Assembly (NCBI RefSeq): GCF_017837635.1
Contig: NZ_JAGJRS010000013.1
Coordinates: forward strand, 186,001 to 250,000
Direction of reading: 5' to 3'
Source: Frateuria flava
Lineage (GTDB): Bacteria; Pseudomonadota; Gammaproteobacteria; Xanthomonadales; Rhodanobacteraceae
Length of the DNA stretch: 64,000 bases
In this document: one piece after another, positions 10,013 through 23,733 of the stretch
Layout of the letters: each line of letters opens with the position of its first letter
How positions within the stretch are numbered: the first letter of the stretch is position 1
Notes under the pieces: model-generated
The model's input: the letters and a program-made list of their open reading frames with translations, nothing else
The model's database searches: none
What the model was told of the DNA's origin: nothing
Position numbers and translations under genes: made by a program

Positions 10013-11179
10013 ATGGCGTTGATCGCGCCGCCGCTGGCGCTGTACGTGCACATGCCCTGGTGCGTGAAGAAGTGTCCGTACTGCGACTTCAACTCGCACG
10101 GCGTGCGCGGCGAGCCGCCGCCCTACGCGACCTATGTCGACACCCTCCTGGCGGACCTGGACGCGGACCTGGCCGATTTCGGCGCCGCCGTCGAAGGCCG
10201 CTCGATCGTCAGCGTCTTCTTCGGCGGCGGCACGCCCAGCCTGTTCGCGCCCGAGCACATCGCGCGCTTCCTGGATGGGGCCCGCGCGCGATTGCCCTTC
10301 GTGGGCGACTGCGAAATCACGCTGGAGACCAACCCCGGCACGGTCGAACACGGCCGCTTCGATGGCTACCTGGCGGCCGGGGTGAACCGGCTTTCCTTCG
10401 GCATCCAGAGCTTCGACGACGACAAGCTCGCGCGCCTGGGCCGCATCCATTCCGCGGCCGAGGCCGAGGCAGCGGTGAAGTCGGCGCAGGACGCGGGCTA
10501 TGCCAACCTCAACCTCGACCTCATGTACGCGTTGCCGCAGCAGTCGCTCGAAGGCGCGCTGGCCGACGTGGAGCGTGCGCTCGCGCTCGCGCCGACCCAC
10601 GTCTCCCATTACCAGCTCACGCTCGAGCCTAACACCGCCTTTGCCGCCAGCCCGCCGCCGCTGCCCGACGACGATGCGGCATGGGCCATGCAGGAAGCCT
10701 GCGAAGCGCGCCTGGCCGAGGCCGGCTACGGCCAGTACGAGGTGTCTGCCTACGCGCGGCCCGACCGGCGCTGCCGACATAACCTCAATTACTGGGAATT
10801 CGGCGACTACCTGGGCATTGGGGCCGGCGCGCACGGCAAGCTCACCGACGCGGCCGCCGGCACGGTGCTGCGGCGCTGGAAGAGCCGCCACCCGCGCACT
10901 TACCTGGAGGCCACCGGCGGCCCCGCGCGCATCGGCGGCGACGGCCCGGTCGAGCCGGCCGAGCTACCGTTCGAGTACATGCTCAACGCCCTGCGGCTTT
11001 ACCAGGGCGTGCCGCTGGACGCGTTCACCCAGCGTACCGGGCTAGCGCTCGAACGCATCGCCCCTGCGCTGGACCAGGCGCGCACCCGTGGCTGGCTGCA
11101 GGATATCCCGGGACGGCTGCAGCCCTCGCTGCTCGGCCAGCGCTTCCTCAACGACCTGATCGAGCTGTTCATGGCCTGA
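10013..11179 (+). CDS. hemW: Radical SAM heme chaperone HemW
   Basis: Radical-SAM-fold protein related to coproporphyrinogen III oxidase HemN but acting as a heme-binding chaperone. The 388-residue protein has the N-terminal YVHMPWCVKKCPYCDFNSH motif (CxxxCxxC) that binds the 4Fe-4S cluster, FFGGGTPSLF, the SAM region ETNPGTVE and GVNRLSFGIQSF. It starts 2 bp after rdgB, so it is probably co-transcribed. HemW rather than HemN is chosen from the short N-terminus and rdgB synteny. Confidence 0.94.
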   Translation: MALIAPPLALYVHMPWCVKKCPYCDFNSHGVRGEPPPYATYVDTLLADLDADLADFGAAVEGRSIVSVFFGGGTPSLFAPEHIARFLDGARARLPFVGDCEITLETNPGTVEHGRFDGYLAAGVNRLSFGIQSFDDDKLARLGRIHSAAEAEAAVKSAQDAGYANLNLDLMYALPQQSLEGALADVERALALAPTHVSHYQLTLEPNTAFAASPPPLPDDDAAWAMQEACEARLAEAGYGQYEVSAYARPDRRCRHNLNYWEFGDYLGIGAGAHGKLTDAAAGTVLRRWKSRHPRTYLEATGGPARIGGDGPVEPAELPFEYMLNALRLYQGVPLDAFTQRTGLALERIAPALDQARTRGWLQDIPGRLQPSLLGQRFLNDLIELFMA

Positions 11180-11257
11180 CGCCGTGAAATCCGGCCTATG
11201 GCGGAGCGGAATCCAGGCGCATACACTGGTGAACGTCAAAAATCCGAGAACTGCGTC

Positions 11258-13528
11258 ATGGATGTCGAGCAAAGGCAGCACCCAGCGGCCCTGCCCGGAC
11301 TGGACGGCCCGGCCACCCAGCAGCACCTGCCCGTGCGTGTCCAGCGCCTGGTGACCGAGTTGCGCGGGTTGTACAACACGCGCCTGGAGCCGGTCCTGGG
11401 CGAAGCGCTCGACGCGCTCGACGACACCCTTTACCAGCTGGCCGAACGCTCGCGCGGCCATCTCGAACAGCAACGCTGCTTCGACAGCCGCGCGATGGCC
11501 CGCTGCCACCGCGCCGCCTTTCTGCGACAGGTCGCCGAACATCTCGCCAGCCGCTTCGCGCGGCTGGGTCAGGTAAGCGACAGCGCCGACACCCTGGCCC
11601 CCATGGCTTCATTGAGCCTGCTCGGCCGTGACGAGCACGAGCTCAATGCCGCGCTGGAACAATTGACCTCCCGCGGCGAAGCCCACACCGGCCCGGTGCT
11701 GGCCGAGCTTTCCTATCGCATGGCCGTGCTGGTCGGCGCACCGCCGCTGGAAGGCGAGGCGCTGCCCGCCTCGCCACAGAGCCTGTCGGCCGCCGTGCGA
11801 CAGGCCATCCCGGCACTGGACCTGCCGGCGGACCACCAGGTGCTGCTGGTGCAGGCGCTGGAGCGCAAGTTGGCGCCCATGCTCCCCGCTCTCTACGAAG
11901 CGGCGAACGCGCATCTGCTCGCCGGCGGCATCCTGCCCCACCTGCGCGCCTTCGCCGGTGCACGACCGGCCAACGCACCACCGGCACCGCCGTCGATGAA
12001 GGCTCCGACGCCTGCGAACGAGCCAACCCGGCCGGCACCGGCCGCCAGCCACGAACCGATCGCCGTGCTGGAGAACCTGCGCGACCTGCTGTCGCGCCAG
12101 CGTGCTGGCGAGGCGCGCACGGTCGCCGGCCACGCCGCCAGCGCCGCCGAACTGGAGGTTGCGCTCGGCGCCCTGCAGCAGCACCTGGTGCAGGTCACCG
12201 ACCGCGCCAGCCGCGAACTGCGCAGCGCCCAGCGCCTGCGCGAGGAACTGCTGACCCACCTCAATGCGGGTAAACCCGCTGGCGCCGCCCGTACGGGATT
12301 GAGCCCTGAGCAGGACGACACAGTGGAGTTGGTCGCGCGGTTGTTCGAGCAGCTCGGCCAGCAGTTGCACCCCGGCCCGGGCGCGACCGCCCTGCTGGGC
12401 GATCTGCAGGTGCCGATCCTGCGCGTGGCGATGAGCGACCGCGACTTCTTCGAGCAGGCCGAACATCCGGCCCGCCACCTGCTCGGCACGCTGGCCGAGG
12501 CGACCAACGACTGGGGCGATGGCAAGGACATCGACCCGGACCTGGCCACGCAACTCAACCGCCTGGTCGCCCGCGCGCAACGCGAGGCGCCCAGCGCCGG
12601 CCTGTACACCAGCCTGCTGGCGGACATCCGCCACCACCTGGCCCAGCTCAGCCGCAAGGCGCAGGTGACCGAACGGCGCCAGGTCGAGGCCATGCAGGGT
12701 CGCGAGCGCCTGCACCAGGCGCGCGAGCGCGCGGCCGAGGTGCTGGCGGCGCGCTTTGCCGAAACCACGCCGCGTGGCCTGCTGCGCGCCCTGCTCGACC
12801 GCGCCTGGTCGGACGTGCTGGCGTTGGCGCTGCTGCGCCACGGCGAGGACAGCGAAGCCTTCGCCGAACGGTTGCGGCTGACCGACCAGCTGCTCGGCCG
12901 CCTACCGGTGGACGACCCGCTGCGCCTGCGCCTGGCGGTGGAGGATCACCTGCAGCAGATCGGCATGCAGGCGGAGGAAGCCGAACAGGTGGCCCAACGC
13001 TTGATCGGCGGTGGCGAATCTCCCAGATCGGCCGAACCGGTCGGGACGACGATACCGGCGCCGGCTGCGGCCGACATGCCAGCGCTGGCCGCCTACGCGC
13101 TGGCGGCCGAGCCGCCCAGCGCGACCGACCTAGCCTTGCGCCTGAAGCAACGCCAGCGCCTGGGCGAGCAGCGCGGCCAGGAGACGCGCCCGGCCACCCC
13201 GCAAGCCGCCGAACCCCCGCTTGGCCCACTGGAAGCGCGCATCCACAACCGCCTGCGGCAATTGCCGTTCGGCAGCTGGTTCGAGTTCATCGACACGCAT
13301 ACCGGTGCCGTCGAACGGCGCAAGCTGGCGTGGTTCTCGCCGTTGTCGGGCAACACCCTGTTCGTCAACCGGCGCGGCCAGCGGGTGGCGGAGATGAACC
13401 TGCGCGAGCTGGCCTCGGCCATCGCCGGCGGCCGGGTACGCGAACAGCTGGTGCCACGCGACGGACTGTTCGACCGCGCCTGGCGCGCACTCACCGGCAG
13501 CCTGCAGCGCCCGACCGCCCGCGCATGA
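11258..13528 (+). CDS. DUF1631 family protein, first copy
   Basis: Large cytoplasmic, mostly helical protein of unknown function (756 residues from ATG 11258). I recognise the DUF1631 pattern: conserved N-terminus, long charged helices (AQVTERRQVEAMQGRERLHQ), an AWSDVLALALLRHGE stretch and a small C-terminal beta domain (GSWFEFIDTHTG, KLAWFSPLSGNTLFVNRRGQ) that loosely recalls a PilZ-like barrel (inference). Pro/Ala-rich linkers lie near residues 235-275 and 585-665. No signal peptide or membrane segment is visible. It overlaps the following PilZ gene by 4 nt, and the pair is repeated immediately downstream. A role in c-di-GMP-linked surface behaviour is only inferred from this partner. Confidence 0.85.
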   Translation: MDVEQRQHPAALPGLDGPATQQHLPVRVQRLVTELRGLYNTRLEPVLGEALDALDDTLYQLAERSRGHLEQQRCFDSRAMARCHRAAFLRQVAEHLASRFARLGQVSDSADTLAPMASLSLLGRDEHELNAALEQLTSRGEAHTGPVLAELSYRMAVLVGAPPLEGEALPASPQSLSAAVRQAIPALDLPADHQVLLVQALERKLAPMLPALYEAANAHLLAGGILPHLRAFAGARPANAPPAPPSMKAPTPANEPTRPAPAASHEPIAVLENLRDLLSRQRAGEARTVAGHAASAAELEVALGALQQHLVQVTDRASRELRSAQRLREELLTHLNAGKPAGAARTGLSPEQDDTVELVARLFEQLGQQLHPGPGATALLGDLQVPILRVAMSDRDFFEQAEHPARHLLGTLAEATNDWGDGKDIDPDLATQLNRLVARAQREAPSAGLYTSLLADIRHHLAQLSRKAQVTERRQVEAMQGRERLHQARERAAEVLAARFAETTPRGLLRALLDRAWSDVLALALLRHGEDSEAFAERLRLTDQLLGRLPVDDPLRLRLAVEDHLQQIGMQAEEAEQVAQRLIGGGESPRSAEPVGTTIPAPAAADMPALAAYALAAEPPSATDLALRLKQRQRLGEQRGQETRPATPQAAEPPLGPLEARIHNRLRQLPFGSWFEFIDTHTGAVERRKLAWFSPLSGNTLFVNRRGQRVAEMNLRELASAIAGGRVREQLVPRDGLFDRAWRALTGSLQRPTARA

Positions 13529-13872
13529 CCGCCCAGGTCATTTCGTTCGACCAGCGCCGCGCGCCGCGCAAGCGCACGGCCGCCTCGCCGCTGGTCACCG
13601 ACACCATCAGCACCCGGCCGCTGGGCCACCTGTGCAACCTGTCGGCCAGCGGTGTCCTGCTGATCGCTCCCGAACGCCCGCGCAGCGAAGCGGTGTTCCA
13701 GGCCCGTCTGCCACTGGCCGATGGGCGCCCTGGCGCCCGGGCCATCGAGATCGGGCTGCAGGAGCAGTGGCACCAGGCCGCCAACGCCGGCCAGATGTGG
13801 GTCGGTTACCGCATCATCGCGATCGCCCCGGAAGATGCGCTGACCCTCGCGCACTGGCTGCAGCGGGCCTGA
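13525..13872 (+). CDS. Small PilZ-domain protein, first copy
   Basis: Single-domain c-di-GMP receptor candidate of 115 residues, started at the ATG (13525) that overlaps the DUF1631 stop. It carries both PilZ binding signatures: an Arg-rich RxxxR segment (QRRAPRKR) and NLSASG, matching [D/N]xSxxG. It then has beta-barrel strands (EIGLQEQWH, WVGYRIIAI). No output domain is attached, so it probably acts by binding a partner, most simply the neighbouring DUF1631 protein (inference). Confidence 0.88.
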   Translation: MTAQVISFDQRRAPRKRTAASPLVTDTISTRPLGHLCNLSASGVLLIAPERPRSEAVFQARLPLADGRPGARAIEIGLQEQWHQAANAGQMWVGYRIIAIAPEDALTLAHWLQRA

Positions 13873-13940
13873 ACCGGCCACCGTGACGCGCCTGCCTCAT
13901 CGGCATAGACTCGCAGACATCGTGGTATGCAAGGCTTCCC

Positions 13941-16070
13941 ATGGATGTCGAACAACCGGACCGGTCGCGCTCGAGCCCAGTCGCCCCGCCGGCGCACTGG
14001 CCGGCGAAGACACGCCGTCTGGTCGACGAAATCCGCCAGTTGTGCCGTGAGTGGCTGTCCGGGCCACTGAGAACATGCCTGGCGGACTTCGACCGCGCCC
14101 TGCACGAGCACGCAGCCAGCGCCCGAAGCCACATCGACCAGCAGCGCTACCAGGCCACTCGCCAGCGCCTGGTGCAGGAGCGCCAGGCATTCGAGCAACG
14201 CTTCATCGAAAGCATCGACCACGCGCTGCTGGAACTGGGCGCGCAGCCGGCGGAGGCCAGGGCGCAACCCGTGCGCCTGACCCTGAGCCTGCTCGATCCG
14301 ATCGAGCACGAGATGACCGCTGCGCTGGACCAGCTGGTCGCCCGCAGCGCCGCGCGTGGCGGCCCGCTGCTGGTGGAGCTGAGCTATCGCCTGGCGGTGC
14401 TGATCGGCACGCCGCCGCTGGAGAGCGAGGCTATGCCGCTGGGCCCGCAGGCGATGGCCAGGGCGTTCCGCGATTCCAGCGCGGCGCTCGGGCTGCCCGC
14501 CGAGCACCACCTGCTGTTGCTGCAGGCGGTCGAGGGCAAGCTGATCCAGGGCCTGACCCCGCTGCACGAGGTGGTCAACAACCACCTGGCGAACGCCGGC
14601 ATCCTGCCGCGGTTGCGTCCCTTCCCGCTACCGCGCTCGCCGCGGCCACCCCGCCCTCCGCGCCCACTCCCGGCGGCTCCCGCGCCGGCCGCCGAAACCT
14701 CCGGCGCACCGGCGAGGCCCTCCGGCCTGCGCGAACTGCTCACCCGCCAACGCGGCCCGCGTCCGGTGTCAGGCCACGCGCGCTTTGCCAGCACGGGCGA
14801 ACTGGATGCCGCACTCGCCAACCTTTCGCGCCGGCGGGTGGACCCGGACATGCTCCGGCGCGCTCCGCGCCTGCGCGAAGCGCTGGTCGACCAGCTCAAC
14901 GCGGGGCAGCCGATCGACGCCGTCCCCATCCTGCCTGGCCCGGACGCCGACGACGCGCTGGAACTGATCGCCCGGCTGTTCGACACCCTGCGGCGTCAGC
15001 AGCCACCCCAGGCCGCTGCGCGCGATCTGCTCGACCGAGTGCAGTTGCCCGTGCTGCGCGCCGCCCTGGCGGACGAAGGCTTTTTTGAACATCGCGAACA
15101 GCCGGCCCGCCAGCTGCTCGACCACCTGCTCGAAGCGGCCCGCGACTGGCTGGAAGGGAGCGAAAGCGGCCTGGTGGCGCCGCTGGAACAACTGCTCGAA
15201 CGCCTCGACCGCGAACCGCCCACGCCTGCGCTGCATGCGGACCTTGCGGCCGAACTGGAGCGCCAGATCGCCCAGCAGCAGCGCAAGGCCCAGGTCACCG
15301 AGCGTCGGCACGTCGAGGCGATGCAAGGCCGCGAACGGCTGGAACAGGCTCGCCAGCGCGCCGCCGACCTGCTCGCCGGGCAGCTCGCCAAGGCACCACC
15401 GCGCGCCGCGCTGCGCGCACTGCTCGAACACGCCTGGTCGGACGTGCTGGCATTGACCCTGCTGCGCCACGGCGAGCAGAGCGACACCTTCGCCCGCCGG
15501 CTGGTGATCACCGACCAGCTGCTCGGCCGCCTCCCTCCCGGCAACCTGGATGCCCTTCAAGCCGAAGTGGTGGCCGGACTGCAACAGATCGGCATGCACG
15601 GCGAGGAGGCCACCGCAATCGCGCAACGCCTGATCGGCGCCGGTGCGGTCATGCAGGAAGGCGAACCGGCAGGGCTTACCAGTCTGGCGATGCGCCTGAA
15701 ACAGCGGCATGGACCGGGCGAAGTTGCGCCGCCGACTCATGCCCCGGCGCCCGTGCCCTCGGCCGAAGCCTTGCGCCTGCATCAACGCCTTGGCCGGCAT
15801 CCCGGCGGCTGGTTCGAATTCGTCCAGCCCGACGGCAGCCGGGTCTCGCGCAAGCTGGCCTGGTATTCGCCACGCGCCGCGCGCGGCCTGTTTGTGACGC
15901 GCCATGGGCAACGCGCCGAGGAGATGAGCCTGGCCGATCTCGCCCAGGCGATCGCCGCGGGTAAAGTCCGCGAAGTACCGGCCGCTAACGAGAGTGACCT
16001 GGACCGTGCCTGGCGCGCGCTGACCGACAGCCTGCGCCAGGCGACACCGATACCCGGAGCCCGTTCGTGA
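13941..16070 (+). CDS. DUF1631 family protein, second copy
   Basis: 709-residue paralogue of the protein encoded at 11258-13528. Matching blocks run from the start (both begin MDVEQ) to the end: LVELSYRLAVLIGTPPLE, AQVTERRHVEAMQGRERLEQ, AWSDVLALTLLRHGEQS, ITDQLLGRLP, GWFEFVQPDGSRVSRKLAWY and AWRALTDSLRQ. The central Pro/Ala linkers are shorter than in copy one. It overlaps the next PilZ gene (GTGA). Divergence is clear, so the duplication is not recent. Function unknown. Confidence 0.85.
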   Translation: MDVEQPDRSRSSPVAPPAHWPAKTRRLVDEIRQLCREWLSGPLRTCLADFDRALHEHAASARSHIDQQRYQATRQRLVQERQAFEQRFIESIDHALLELGAQPAEARAQPVRLTLSLLDPIEHEMTAALDQLVARSAARGGPLLVELSYRLAVLIGTPPLESEAMPLGPQAMARAFRDSSAALGLPAEHHLLLLQAVEGKLIQGLTPLHEVVNNHLANAGILPRLRPFPLPRSPRPPRPPRPLPAAPAPAAETSGAPARPSGLRELLTRQRGPRPVSGHARFASTGELDAALANLSRRRVDPDMLRRAPRLREALVDQLNAGQPIDAVPILPGPDADDALELIARLFDTLRRQQPPQAAARDLLDRVQLPVLRAALADEGFFEHREQPARQLLDHLLEAARDWLEGSESGLVAPLEQLLERLDREPPTPALHADLAAELERQIAQQQRKAQVTERRHVEAMQGRERLEQARQRAADLLAGQLAKAPPRAALRALLEHAWSDVLALTLLRHGEQSDTFARRLVITDQLLGRLPPGNLDALQAEVVAGLQQIGMHGEEATAIAQRLIGAGAVMQEGEPAGLTSLAMRLKQRHGPGEVAPPTHAPAPVPSAEALRLHQRLGRHPGGWFEFVQPDGSRVSRKLAWYSPRAARGLFVTRHGQRAEEMSLADLAQAIAAGKVREVPAANESDLDRAWRALTDSLRQATPIPGARS

Positions 16071-16414
16071 CGCCCAACCCGCAGGAAAGCCGCCGCGCCC
16101 ATCGCAAGCCGGTCAACATCGCCGCCGAAGTGGTCGATGCGATCAGCGGCCGGCGCATGGGCCAGTTGGGCAACCTGTCGGCCAGCGGCATGCTGCTGAT
16201 CGGCAGCGAGGCGCCACGCAACGAGGCGATCTACCAGTTGCGGCTCCCGTTGCCAGGGTTGGCCGAAGCGACGCCGACGATCGAAGTGGGCGTGCAGGAG
16301 CAGTGGCACGAGGAAGCGGCCACGCCCGGCCAGGTCTGGGCCGGCTACCGCATCATCGCCATCGGCGACGTCGAATCGGCGCAGCTCCAGCGTTGGCTCG
16401 ACATGCCCGGCTGA
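16067..16414 (+). CDS. Small PilZ-domain protein, second copy
   Basis: 115-residue paralogue of the protein at 13525-13872, beginning with a GTG that overlaps the preceding stop. The c-di-GMP signatures are present (SRRAHRKP giving RxxxR; NLSASG). The sequence YRIIAI near the C-terminus matches the first copy, while loop regions differ. It closes the second DUF1631-PilZ unit. Confidence 0.87.
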   Translation: MTPNPQESRRAHRKPVNIAAEVVDAISGRRMGQLGNLSASGMLLIGSEAPRNEAIYQLRLPLPGLAEATPTIEVGVQEQWHEEAATPGQVWAGYRIIAIGDVESAQLQRWLDMPG

Positions 16415-16517: not shown

Positions 16518-17837
16518 ATGACCGAGAATCTCGCCCCGCTCTACGCCAAACACCTGGCCACCCTGCGCGAACGCGCGGACAAGGCGCTCGCGCTGGGCGG
16601 CTTCGACCGGTTGCTAATCGCCGCGGGCAAGCCGCTGAACAAGTTCCTCGACGACCAGGACTTCCCGTTCGTCTCCAACCCGCATTTCCGCCACTGGCTG
16701 CCGCTGACCGACGCGCCGGGCAGCTGGATCGTGTACGAGCCCGGTGCGAAACCGAAGCTGGTGTTCGTACAGCCGCGCGACTACTGGCACGTGGTGCCGG
16801 CCGCCCCCAGCGGCTACTGGGTCGATCAGTTCGACATCCAGGTCGTGCGTAGTGACGCCGACGCCGTCGCCGCACTGCCGAAGCAGGGCCGCAACGCCGT
16901 GATCGGACCGGCCTGTCCGTCCATCGAAGGCGTGCAGGCAAACAACCCCGAGCCGGTGATGAACTACCTGCACTGGCACCGCAGCTACAAGACGCCCTAC
17001 GAGCTGGCGCTGATGCGCGAGGCGAGCCGTATCGGCACGCGCGCGCACCGCGCGGCCGAAGCGGCGTTCCGCAACGGCGAGAGCGAGTTCGGCATCCACA
17101 TGGCCTACCTCGCCGCCGCGCGGCAGGTGGACGCCGAGCTTCCCTACTCGAGCATCGTGGGCCTGAACGAGCACGGGGCGGTGCTGCACTACAGCCACTT
17201 CGACCGCCAGCCGCCGTCCGTGCATCGCTCGTTCCTGATCGACGCGGGCGCCAGTTGCGCCGGTTACGCCAGCGACATCACGCGCACCTACGCCGCTACC
17301 GGCGCCGGCGATTTCCAGGCGCTGATCGACAGCATGGACGCCGCCCAGCGCGAGCTGGCCTCGAAGGTGCGCGCCGGCCAGAGCTACCCCGAGCTGCACA
17401 TCCACGCCCACCACCTGGTGGCCAGCGTGCTGCGCGAGCACGGCATCATCCGCATGGACCCCGAGTCGGCGGTCGCCAGCGGCGTGACCTCGGCGTTCTT
17501 CCCGCATGGCCTGGGCCACCCGATCGGCCTGGCGGTGCACGACGTGGCCGGGTTCCAGCAGAACGAGCGCGGCGGCAGCATTGCGCGTCCGGAAGGCCAC
17601 CCGTTCCTGCGCATGACCCGCGTGCTCGAGGCCGGGATGGTGGTGACCATCGAGCCTGGCCTGTATTTCATCGACATGCTGCTGGACGAGCTGCGCGCGA
17701 ACCCGGCGGCGAAGGATGTCGACTGGGCCCGGGTCGATGCGTTCCGGCCCTACGGCGGCATCCGCATCGAGGACGACGTGGTGTGCAGCGACGGCGCGCC
17801 GGAGAACCTCACCCGCGACGCCTTCGCCCTGCTCTAG
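16518..17837 (+). CDS. pepQ: Xaa-Pro dipeptidase PepQ
   Basis: Cytoplasmic M24 metallopeptidase that cleaves dipeptides with C-terminal proline. The 439-residue protein has the PepQ-type N-terminal domain (MTENLAPLYAKHLATLRERAD, FVSNPHFRHWLPLTD) and the pita-bread domain with all metal ligands: two Asp in DAGASCAGYASDITRTY, His in FFPHGLGHPIGLAVHD, Glu in TIEPGLYF and Glu in GIRIEDDV. Length matches E. coli PepQ (443). It is followed by the heptad repeat array and faces cydB. Confidence 0.95.
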   Translation: MTENLAPLYAKHLATLRERADKALALGGFDRLLIAAGKPLNKFLDDQDFPFVSNPHFRHWLPLTDAPGSWIVYEPGAKPKLVFVQPRDYWHVVPAAPSGYWVDQFDIQVVRSDADAVAALPKQGRNAVIGPACPSIEGVQANNPEPVMNYLHWHRSYKTPYELALMREASRIGTRAHRAAEAAFRNGESEFGIHMAYLAAARQVDAELPYSSIVGLNEHGAVLHYSHFDRQPPSVHRSFLIDAGASCAGYASDITRTYAATGAGDFQALIDSMDAAQRELASKVRAGQSYPELHIHAHHLVASVLREHGIIRMDPESAVASGVTSAFFPHGLGHPIGLAVHDVAGFQQNERGGSIARPEGHPFLRMTRVLEAGMVVTIEPGLYFIDMLLDELRANPAAKDVDWARVDAFRPYGGIRIEDDVVCSDGAPENLTRDAFALL

Positions 17838-17887
17838 CGGGAGACCCGTCGGAGCCCAGTTGTGGGCGATGCGGGTCGCGCGCACCC

Positions 17888-18104
17888 GGGATTCGGGATT
17901 CGGGATTCGGGATTCGGGATTCGGGATTCGGGATTCGGGATTCGGGATTCGGGATTCGGGATTCGGGATTCGGGATTCGGGATTCGGGATTCGGGATTCG
18001 GGATTCGGGAGCCGGGAGCCGGGAGCCGGGAGCCGGGAGCCGGGAGCCGCGAGCCGGGAGCCGCGAGCCGCGAGCCGCGAGCCGCGAGTCCGGATTCGGG
18101 ACTC
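17888..18104. repeat. 31-unit heptanucleotide tandem array
   Basis: Unbroken 7-bp periodicity: 17 identical GGGATTC units (17888-18006), then 14 units drifting through GGGAGCC (six), mixed GCGAGCC/GGGAGCC, GCGAGTC, CGGATTC and GGGACTC. Shortly after, 18131-18163 holds a few units in the opposite orientation (CCCGAATCCC type), so the whole could fold back on itself. It fills the 329-bp spacer between convergent pepQ and cydB. Nothing else is seen in that spacer. Confidence 0.97.
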
Positions 18105-23545: not shown

Positions 23546-23733
23546 GGCGTTTTCTGCGGTGTGCGCCAGCACACTCTACATTTGCCTTGTTCCTATATAC
23601 GGCCCCGGGTCGGCTTCACATGGTTGTTGTGCATGTCCGCCGCGTGCGGAAAGCCTTTAAGGCCATGTAGCCCTCCCACCTGATCCAAGCGGATCAAGGT
23701 CGTTCGGTGGGCAGCGGCATCGTGGTTGACGCC
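23546..23733 (+). ncRNA. ssrS: 6S RNA
   Basis: About 188 nt between zapA and the 5-FCL gene, the conserved position of ssrS. The 3' half carries the recognisable pattern AAGCCTTTAAGGCC, then CACCTGATCCAAGCGGATCA with AGGTCG, GTGGGCAGCGGCATC, parallel to E. coli 6S. The ends GGCGTT and GACGCC can pair to close the long hairpin. 6S RNA mimics an open promoter and holds the housekeeping RNA polymerase in stationary phase. End points are estimated from pairing. Confidence 0.85.

Follow-up and report, generated by a model that had tools for sequence, protein, structure and literature searches.

Our analyses of the locus listed in Table 1 suggest, with a probability of roughly two in three, that each of the two DUF1631-PilZ modules lying side by side in Frateuria flava is a two-part c-di-GMP output device in which PilZ docks on DUF1631, the modules being paralogous and each having its own PilZ. 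The locus belongs to a window of 64,000 nucleotides, the whole stretch of DNA that was analysed. As the original prediction had stated, it holds two DUF1631-PilZ pairs with the same gene order, both using 4-nt stop/start overlaps. The claimed protein similarity was also recovered by BLASTP, running from the MDVEQ start to the C-terminus for DUF1631a and DUF1631b (44% identity, E 3e-160), and at 51% identity (E 2e-33) for PilZa and PilZb; both PilZ proteins indeed keep RxxxR and NLSASG. DUF1631a and DUF1631b are full-length matches to PF07793, far above its curated cut-off of 33.7 bits. PilZb likewise exceeds the Pfam PilZ cut-off (PF07238, 22.5 bits), whereas PilZa remains below it despite its resemblance to PilZb. 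The same tandem arrangement occurs in all five complete Frateuria genomes searched, and comparison with F. terrea shows purifying selection on each of the four genes (dN/dS of 0.20, 0.15, 0.24 and 0.06); for these two reasons the arrangement is not due to chance.

Table 1. Features of the DUF1631-PilZ locus and its conserved neighbours (window positions).
Feature	Position	Strand	Properties
hemW-like gene, conserved upstream neighbour	10013..11179	+	Radical_SAM + HemN_C; synteny
DUF1631a (copy 1, clade X)	11258..13528	+	756 aa; PF07793 452 bits, residues 25-749
ATGA stop/start overlap, DUF1631a/PilZa	13525..13528	+	read from sequence
PilZa (copy 1)	13525..13872	+	115 aa; RRAPR, NLSASG; PF07238 17.7 bits, under 22.5 cut-off
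DUF1631b (copy 2, clade Y)	13941..16070	+	709 aa; PF07793 373 bits; helical body and C-terminal SH3/Tudor-like barrel predicted (residues ~608-699)
GTGA stop/start overlap, DUF1631b/PilZb	16067..16070	+	read from sequence
PilZb (copy 2)	16067..16414	+	115 aa; RRAHR, NLSASG; PF07238 24.1 bits, above cut-off
pepQ-like Xaa-Pro dipeptidase gene, conserved downstream neighbour	16518..17837	+	PepQ_N + Peptidase_M24; synteny

A promoter scan of the locus returned zero sigma-70 matches at the scan threshold, and terminator matches there were no commoner than the chance level. Approximately 30 bases 5' of the DUF1631a and DUF1631b starts lie the hexamers TACACT (~11222-11227) and TAGACT (~13906-13911), candidate -10 elements that could belong to separate promoters for the two genes. 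The window also contains, just 3' of the pepQ-like gene, a 7-bp tandem repeat of CGGGATT (17887-18045, with ~18 perfect copies at 17887-18010) and, further along, a 6S RNA (23548-23732; Rfam RF00013, 82.3 bits).

Across the Rhodanobacteraceae, DUF1631 genes fall into two types that are clearly apart by profile score and tree, namely type A, which is solo, and type B, which is PilZ-linked. Relatives of PilZb were present in 103 of the 114 genomes of our family sample and gave 113 PilZ matches, of which 112 lie directly 3' of a type-B DUF1631 gene on the same strand; the one that does not (G077) is a fragment lying where a contig ends. Seen from the other partner, an adjacent 3' PilZ accompanies 112 of the 116 type-B genes listed. 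The remaining four are those of G074, where the DUF1631 match stops at residue 594 of 756 and the gene is apparently cut by the contig, of G087, and the second copies of G050, which has an in-frame TAG, and of G099. While these counts are unbiased, a named set of 83 type-B genes was gathered with type-B patterns; it shows the exact 4-nt overlap in 71 cases (53 ATGA, 18 GTGA), a PilZ gene at different spacing in 10, and none in two, each of which opens a DUF1631-DUF1631-PilZ array (Rhodanobacter fulvus and Root480). In these Rhodanobacter arrays (L132, 4938-9798; L171, 4938-9792), the first DUF1631, without a PilZ of its own, stands beside a partnered copy. RxxxR and NxSxxG are both present in every PilZ partner examined (63/63 each). 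Two records call for comment. That of Dyella jiangningensis (CP007444.1) carries the DUF1631-PilZ locus twice (L142, L143) with identical gene coordinates in both, which reflects either duplication of a large segment or an error of assembly, and a contig labelled Candidatus Eremiobacteraeota (L178) bears a Dyella-like copy of the locus and is probably misbinned.

The Frateuria genome itself has three DUF1631 genes, two in the window and one on another contig. This third copy (L001), of type A, lacks an adjacent PilZ, its neighbours being nadC and Trm112/purE-type genes, and scores 380 bits against the PacR model NF058594 (cut-off 1200). The PilZ subfamily is thus almost always a DUF1631 partner, but the reverse does not always hold, because most DUF1631 lineages, including this third copy, have no adjacent PilZ.

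Most loci share the order rph-rdgB-hemW-[module(s)]-pepQ, with gene names assigned by Pfam. Two genomes of a sister family (L299, L301) possess a hemW-like gene together with DUF1631 and PilZ with the 4-nt overlap; the site therefore predates the family, and both Frateuria modules occupy this ancestral hemW-pepQ position. In the outgroup-rooted DUF1631 tree, copy 1 belongs to clade X (9 rows, support 100), alongside Dyella acidiphila and some Rhodanobacter, and copy 2 to clade Y (18 rows, support 100), where it groups with Fulvimonas soli, Frateuria defendens and Rhodanobacter OK091; the PilZ tree agrees on these separate groupings. The 'tandem duplication' of the original prediction consequently stands as a description of the arrangement and fails as to the recent origin that it implied. 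A recent in-situ duplication within Frateuria followed by fast divergence might be suspected from copies that sit side by side and share the MDVEQ start and the 4-nt overlaps, but it is highly improbable: the copies group with different taxa, and a joint clade of Frateuria copies costs 90 log-likelihood units in a 20-row tree and is rejected under the model used (AU p = 2.4e-16). The two modules are old paralogues that predate the genus and did not arise by duplication within it. Their order at the same site varies, being X-Y in Frateuria and Y-Z in some Rhodanobacter arrays, which, together with the AU rejection, implies an old paralogue set with reshuffling, loss or transfer. The acquisition of one module by horizontal transfer within the Rhodanobacteraceae, with insertion beside a resident module, would fit this lineage-dependent order as well as the fact that some Y modules (L121, L124, L125, L180) lie away from the hemW-pepQ site. 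Nevertheless, X and Y are found at the ancestral site in several genera, a distribution for which an array already present in the ancestor, later altered by differential loss or unequal crossing-over, accounts equally well, so that we regard transfer as a respectable but rather unlikely account.

Within this old paralogue set, partners have stayed together. The same rows make up clades X (9), Y (17 pairs) and Z (22) in the DUF1631 and PilZ trees, whose clade memberships we compared by reading the two printed trees; for Y, with 18 rows in the DUF1631 tree, the count covers those that have a PilZ, among them Dyella lutea L168. Support in the PilZ tree is strong for Z (99/98) and not strong for X (86/70) and Y (94/89), and the comparison gave no sign of partner exchange. 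Each PilZ is co-inherited with its own DUF1631, a pattern that physical linkage alone could also yield.

DUF1631 extends well outside this family. It was detected in 45 of the 143 genomes of a class-wide sample, many copies being solo, and in 17 of the 150 genomes of a phylum sample, all 17 from Gammaproteobacteria. Pairs of DUF1631 and PilZ were confirmed by Pfam in other families (L238, L246, L254, L296, L298), and in a further lineage (L240) the PilZ gene lies directly 5' of DUF1631. In addition, 13 genomes of the class sample, representing 13 families, contain long open frames reading PilZ-DUF1631-GGDEF-EAL. Eight fusions (seven of these plus L302) were run through Pfam; every one shows clear DUF1631, GGDEF and EAL domains, and four also have a PilZ above the cut-off. 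The other fusion PilZ regions were recognised from their motifs and with a local PilZ profile, some of whose input sequences were fusions; L302, a sequence outside that input, scores 59 bits against it. For the frames outside the Pfam run, the GGDEF-EAL part was deduced from length and C-terminal sequence. On the tree the fusions form one DUF1631 clade (14 rows, support 100), and the operons with a 3' PilZ form another (15 rows, support 93). Given this separation and the 5'-PilZ lineage, there are at least two separate kinds of PilZ-DUF1631 association, and probably three. Judged by the linkage, the matching trees and the fusions, the partnership that the original prediction called dedicated holds for this subfamily of PilZ and for one DUF1631 clade or two, and does not hold for DUF1631 overall; in our genome survey, separation of the two families is frequent for DUF1631 and not for the PilZ subfamily. 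Many fusions (L224-L236, L302) have DFCxxG, with Cys replacing Ser in the second PilZ motif, as against the NxSxxG of the operon PilZ, a change that may alter ligand binding. Tandem DUF1631 pairs without PilZ also exist (L237, 1927-6577, in G128; G110, C154:54235-60370), indicating that DUF1631 itself tends to occur in tandem.

The AlphaFold2 (AF2) model of DUF1631b, based on 63 sequences (mean pLDDT 84.4, pTM 0.59), shows a helical body and a C-terminal barrel; the C-terminal domain modelled alone reached a pLDDT of 78. This domain aligns to SH3/Tudor-like domains, such as those of TraI (Z 8.0, 2.2 A over 68 residues) and Spindlin (Z 7.5), and is predicted to be SH3/Tudor-like in its general fold only, such Z values being attained also by models that lack a clear relative. 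As to a possible PilZ domain hidden at the DUF1631 C-terminus, the whole-protein and domain-alone models both give the SH3/Tudor-like barrel; PilZ structures do not figure among the matches listed for the domain, where SH3/Tudor-like ones are best, although such an absence is no proof. A Foldseek search with the DUF1631b models gave no significant match, and a sequence search of solved structures found none for DUF1631 and none meaningful for PilZb.

The literature that we found describes no function for DUF1631 (PF07793). The nearest named NCBIfam model is PacR (NF058594), but DUF1631a and DUF1631b score 216.5 and 159.1 bits, far under its curated cut-off of 1200, and hence do not qualify as PacR; the open literature yielded nothing on PacR as a DUF1631 protein. 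Canonical PilZ receptors are not known to be linked to the gene of a large partner. Those receptors, such as PA4608 and DgrA (PMC3131395), resemble the Frateuria proteins in being small PilZ proteins with RxxxR and D/NxSxxG; by contrast, the Frateuria PilZ genes overlap with DUF1631. Judged by motifs only, PilZa and PilZb both have the RxxxR and [D/N]xSxxG signature of c-di-GMP-binding PilZ. The xanthomonad Filp/FimX pair, in which it is the EAL domain of the large partner that binds c-di-GMP, the PilZ being degenerate (PMC6637768), offers a parallel for the proposed partnership of a large protein with a small PilZ in c-di-GMP signalling. However, a FimX/Filp-type system requires a large partner with (degenerate) GGDEF/EAL, and the Pfam scan of DUF1631a and DUF1631b found DUF1631 with no GGDEF and no EAL; moreover, the Frateuria PilZ proteins keep their motifs. 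The PilZ-DUF1631-GGDEF-EAL proteins also unite PilZ and DUF1631, there in one chain, but differ from the Frateuria pairs in their N-terminal PilZ, their added enzyme domains, their frequent DFCxxG and their separate DUF1631 clade. The xanthomonad PilZ gene XC2249, considered as a possible orthologue, adjoins fliC/fliD/fliS (PMC3131395) and hence represents a different locus.

Because other bacteria have PilZ and DUF1631 fused within single proteins, the two very probably work together. We propose that translational coupling would lead to PilZ being made directly after DUF1631, co-translation helping the partners to meet, and that PilZ would dock on DUF1631 as on a large helical scaffold. PilZ would be the ligand-binding part, capturing c-di-GMP via RxxxR/NxSxxG, a role suggested by the invariance of these motifs, and c-di-GMP would then change what the scaffold binds or does, with possible consequences for processes further downstream, for example attachment to surfaces or dispersal. 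In the fusions, a PilZ-DUF1631 unit ahead of GGDEF-EAL would sense or control c-di-GMP turnover. It might be argued instead that the two proteins are co-translated at hemW-pepQ only through operon stability, without interacting, since linked genes yield matching trees without interaction and most DUF1631 are solo. Such neutrality is improbable in view of the Y modules that remain linked at other sites, of the three layouts in which PilZ occurs with DUF1631 (3' gene, 5' gene and N-terminal fusion) and of a PilZ subfamily that practically never goes without DUF1631. Slightly less probable still is that PilZ acts on DUF1631 without c-di-GMP, for instance as a subunit that aids its folding or stability. 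Some PilZ adaptors are known that do not bind the ligand, as in the degenerate PilZ of Filp/FimX (PMC6637768), and PilZa scores under the Pfam cut-off, but a ligand-free adaptor would not need the motifs that all 63 partners retain.

We therefore retain the c-di-GMP-dependent pair as our preferred reading. Its extension is about an even bet: PilZ-DUF1631 would be a c-di-GMP output complex that is widespread in Gammaproteobacteria (in the GTDB sense) and has gone unrecognised, existing as a coupled pair or as a PilZ-DUF1631-GGDEF-EAL receptor-enzyme, with DUF1631 as the effector scaffold and the two paralogous pairs mutually insulated. One lead on the output of DUF1631 comes from PA4523 of P. 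aeruginosa, which we take to be a DUF1631 protein and whose value as a lead rests on that assumption. PA4523 is reported to be induced at biofilm dispersal (PMC13128677) but to respond little to a nitric oxide donor or a nitroxide (PMC13024080). DUF1631 proteins are large and common in one bacterial class, and their repeated linkage and fusion to PilZ, together with the fusion to GGDEF/EAL, places at least two of their clades in c-di-GMP signalling and makes the family testable. The solo clade provides a built-in comparison for the PilZ-linked ones, and genomes with two PilZ-DUF1631 pairs, like that of Frateuria, are natural material on how paralogous partner pairs stay separate.
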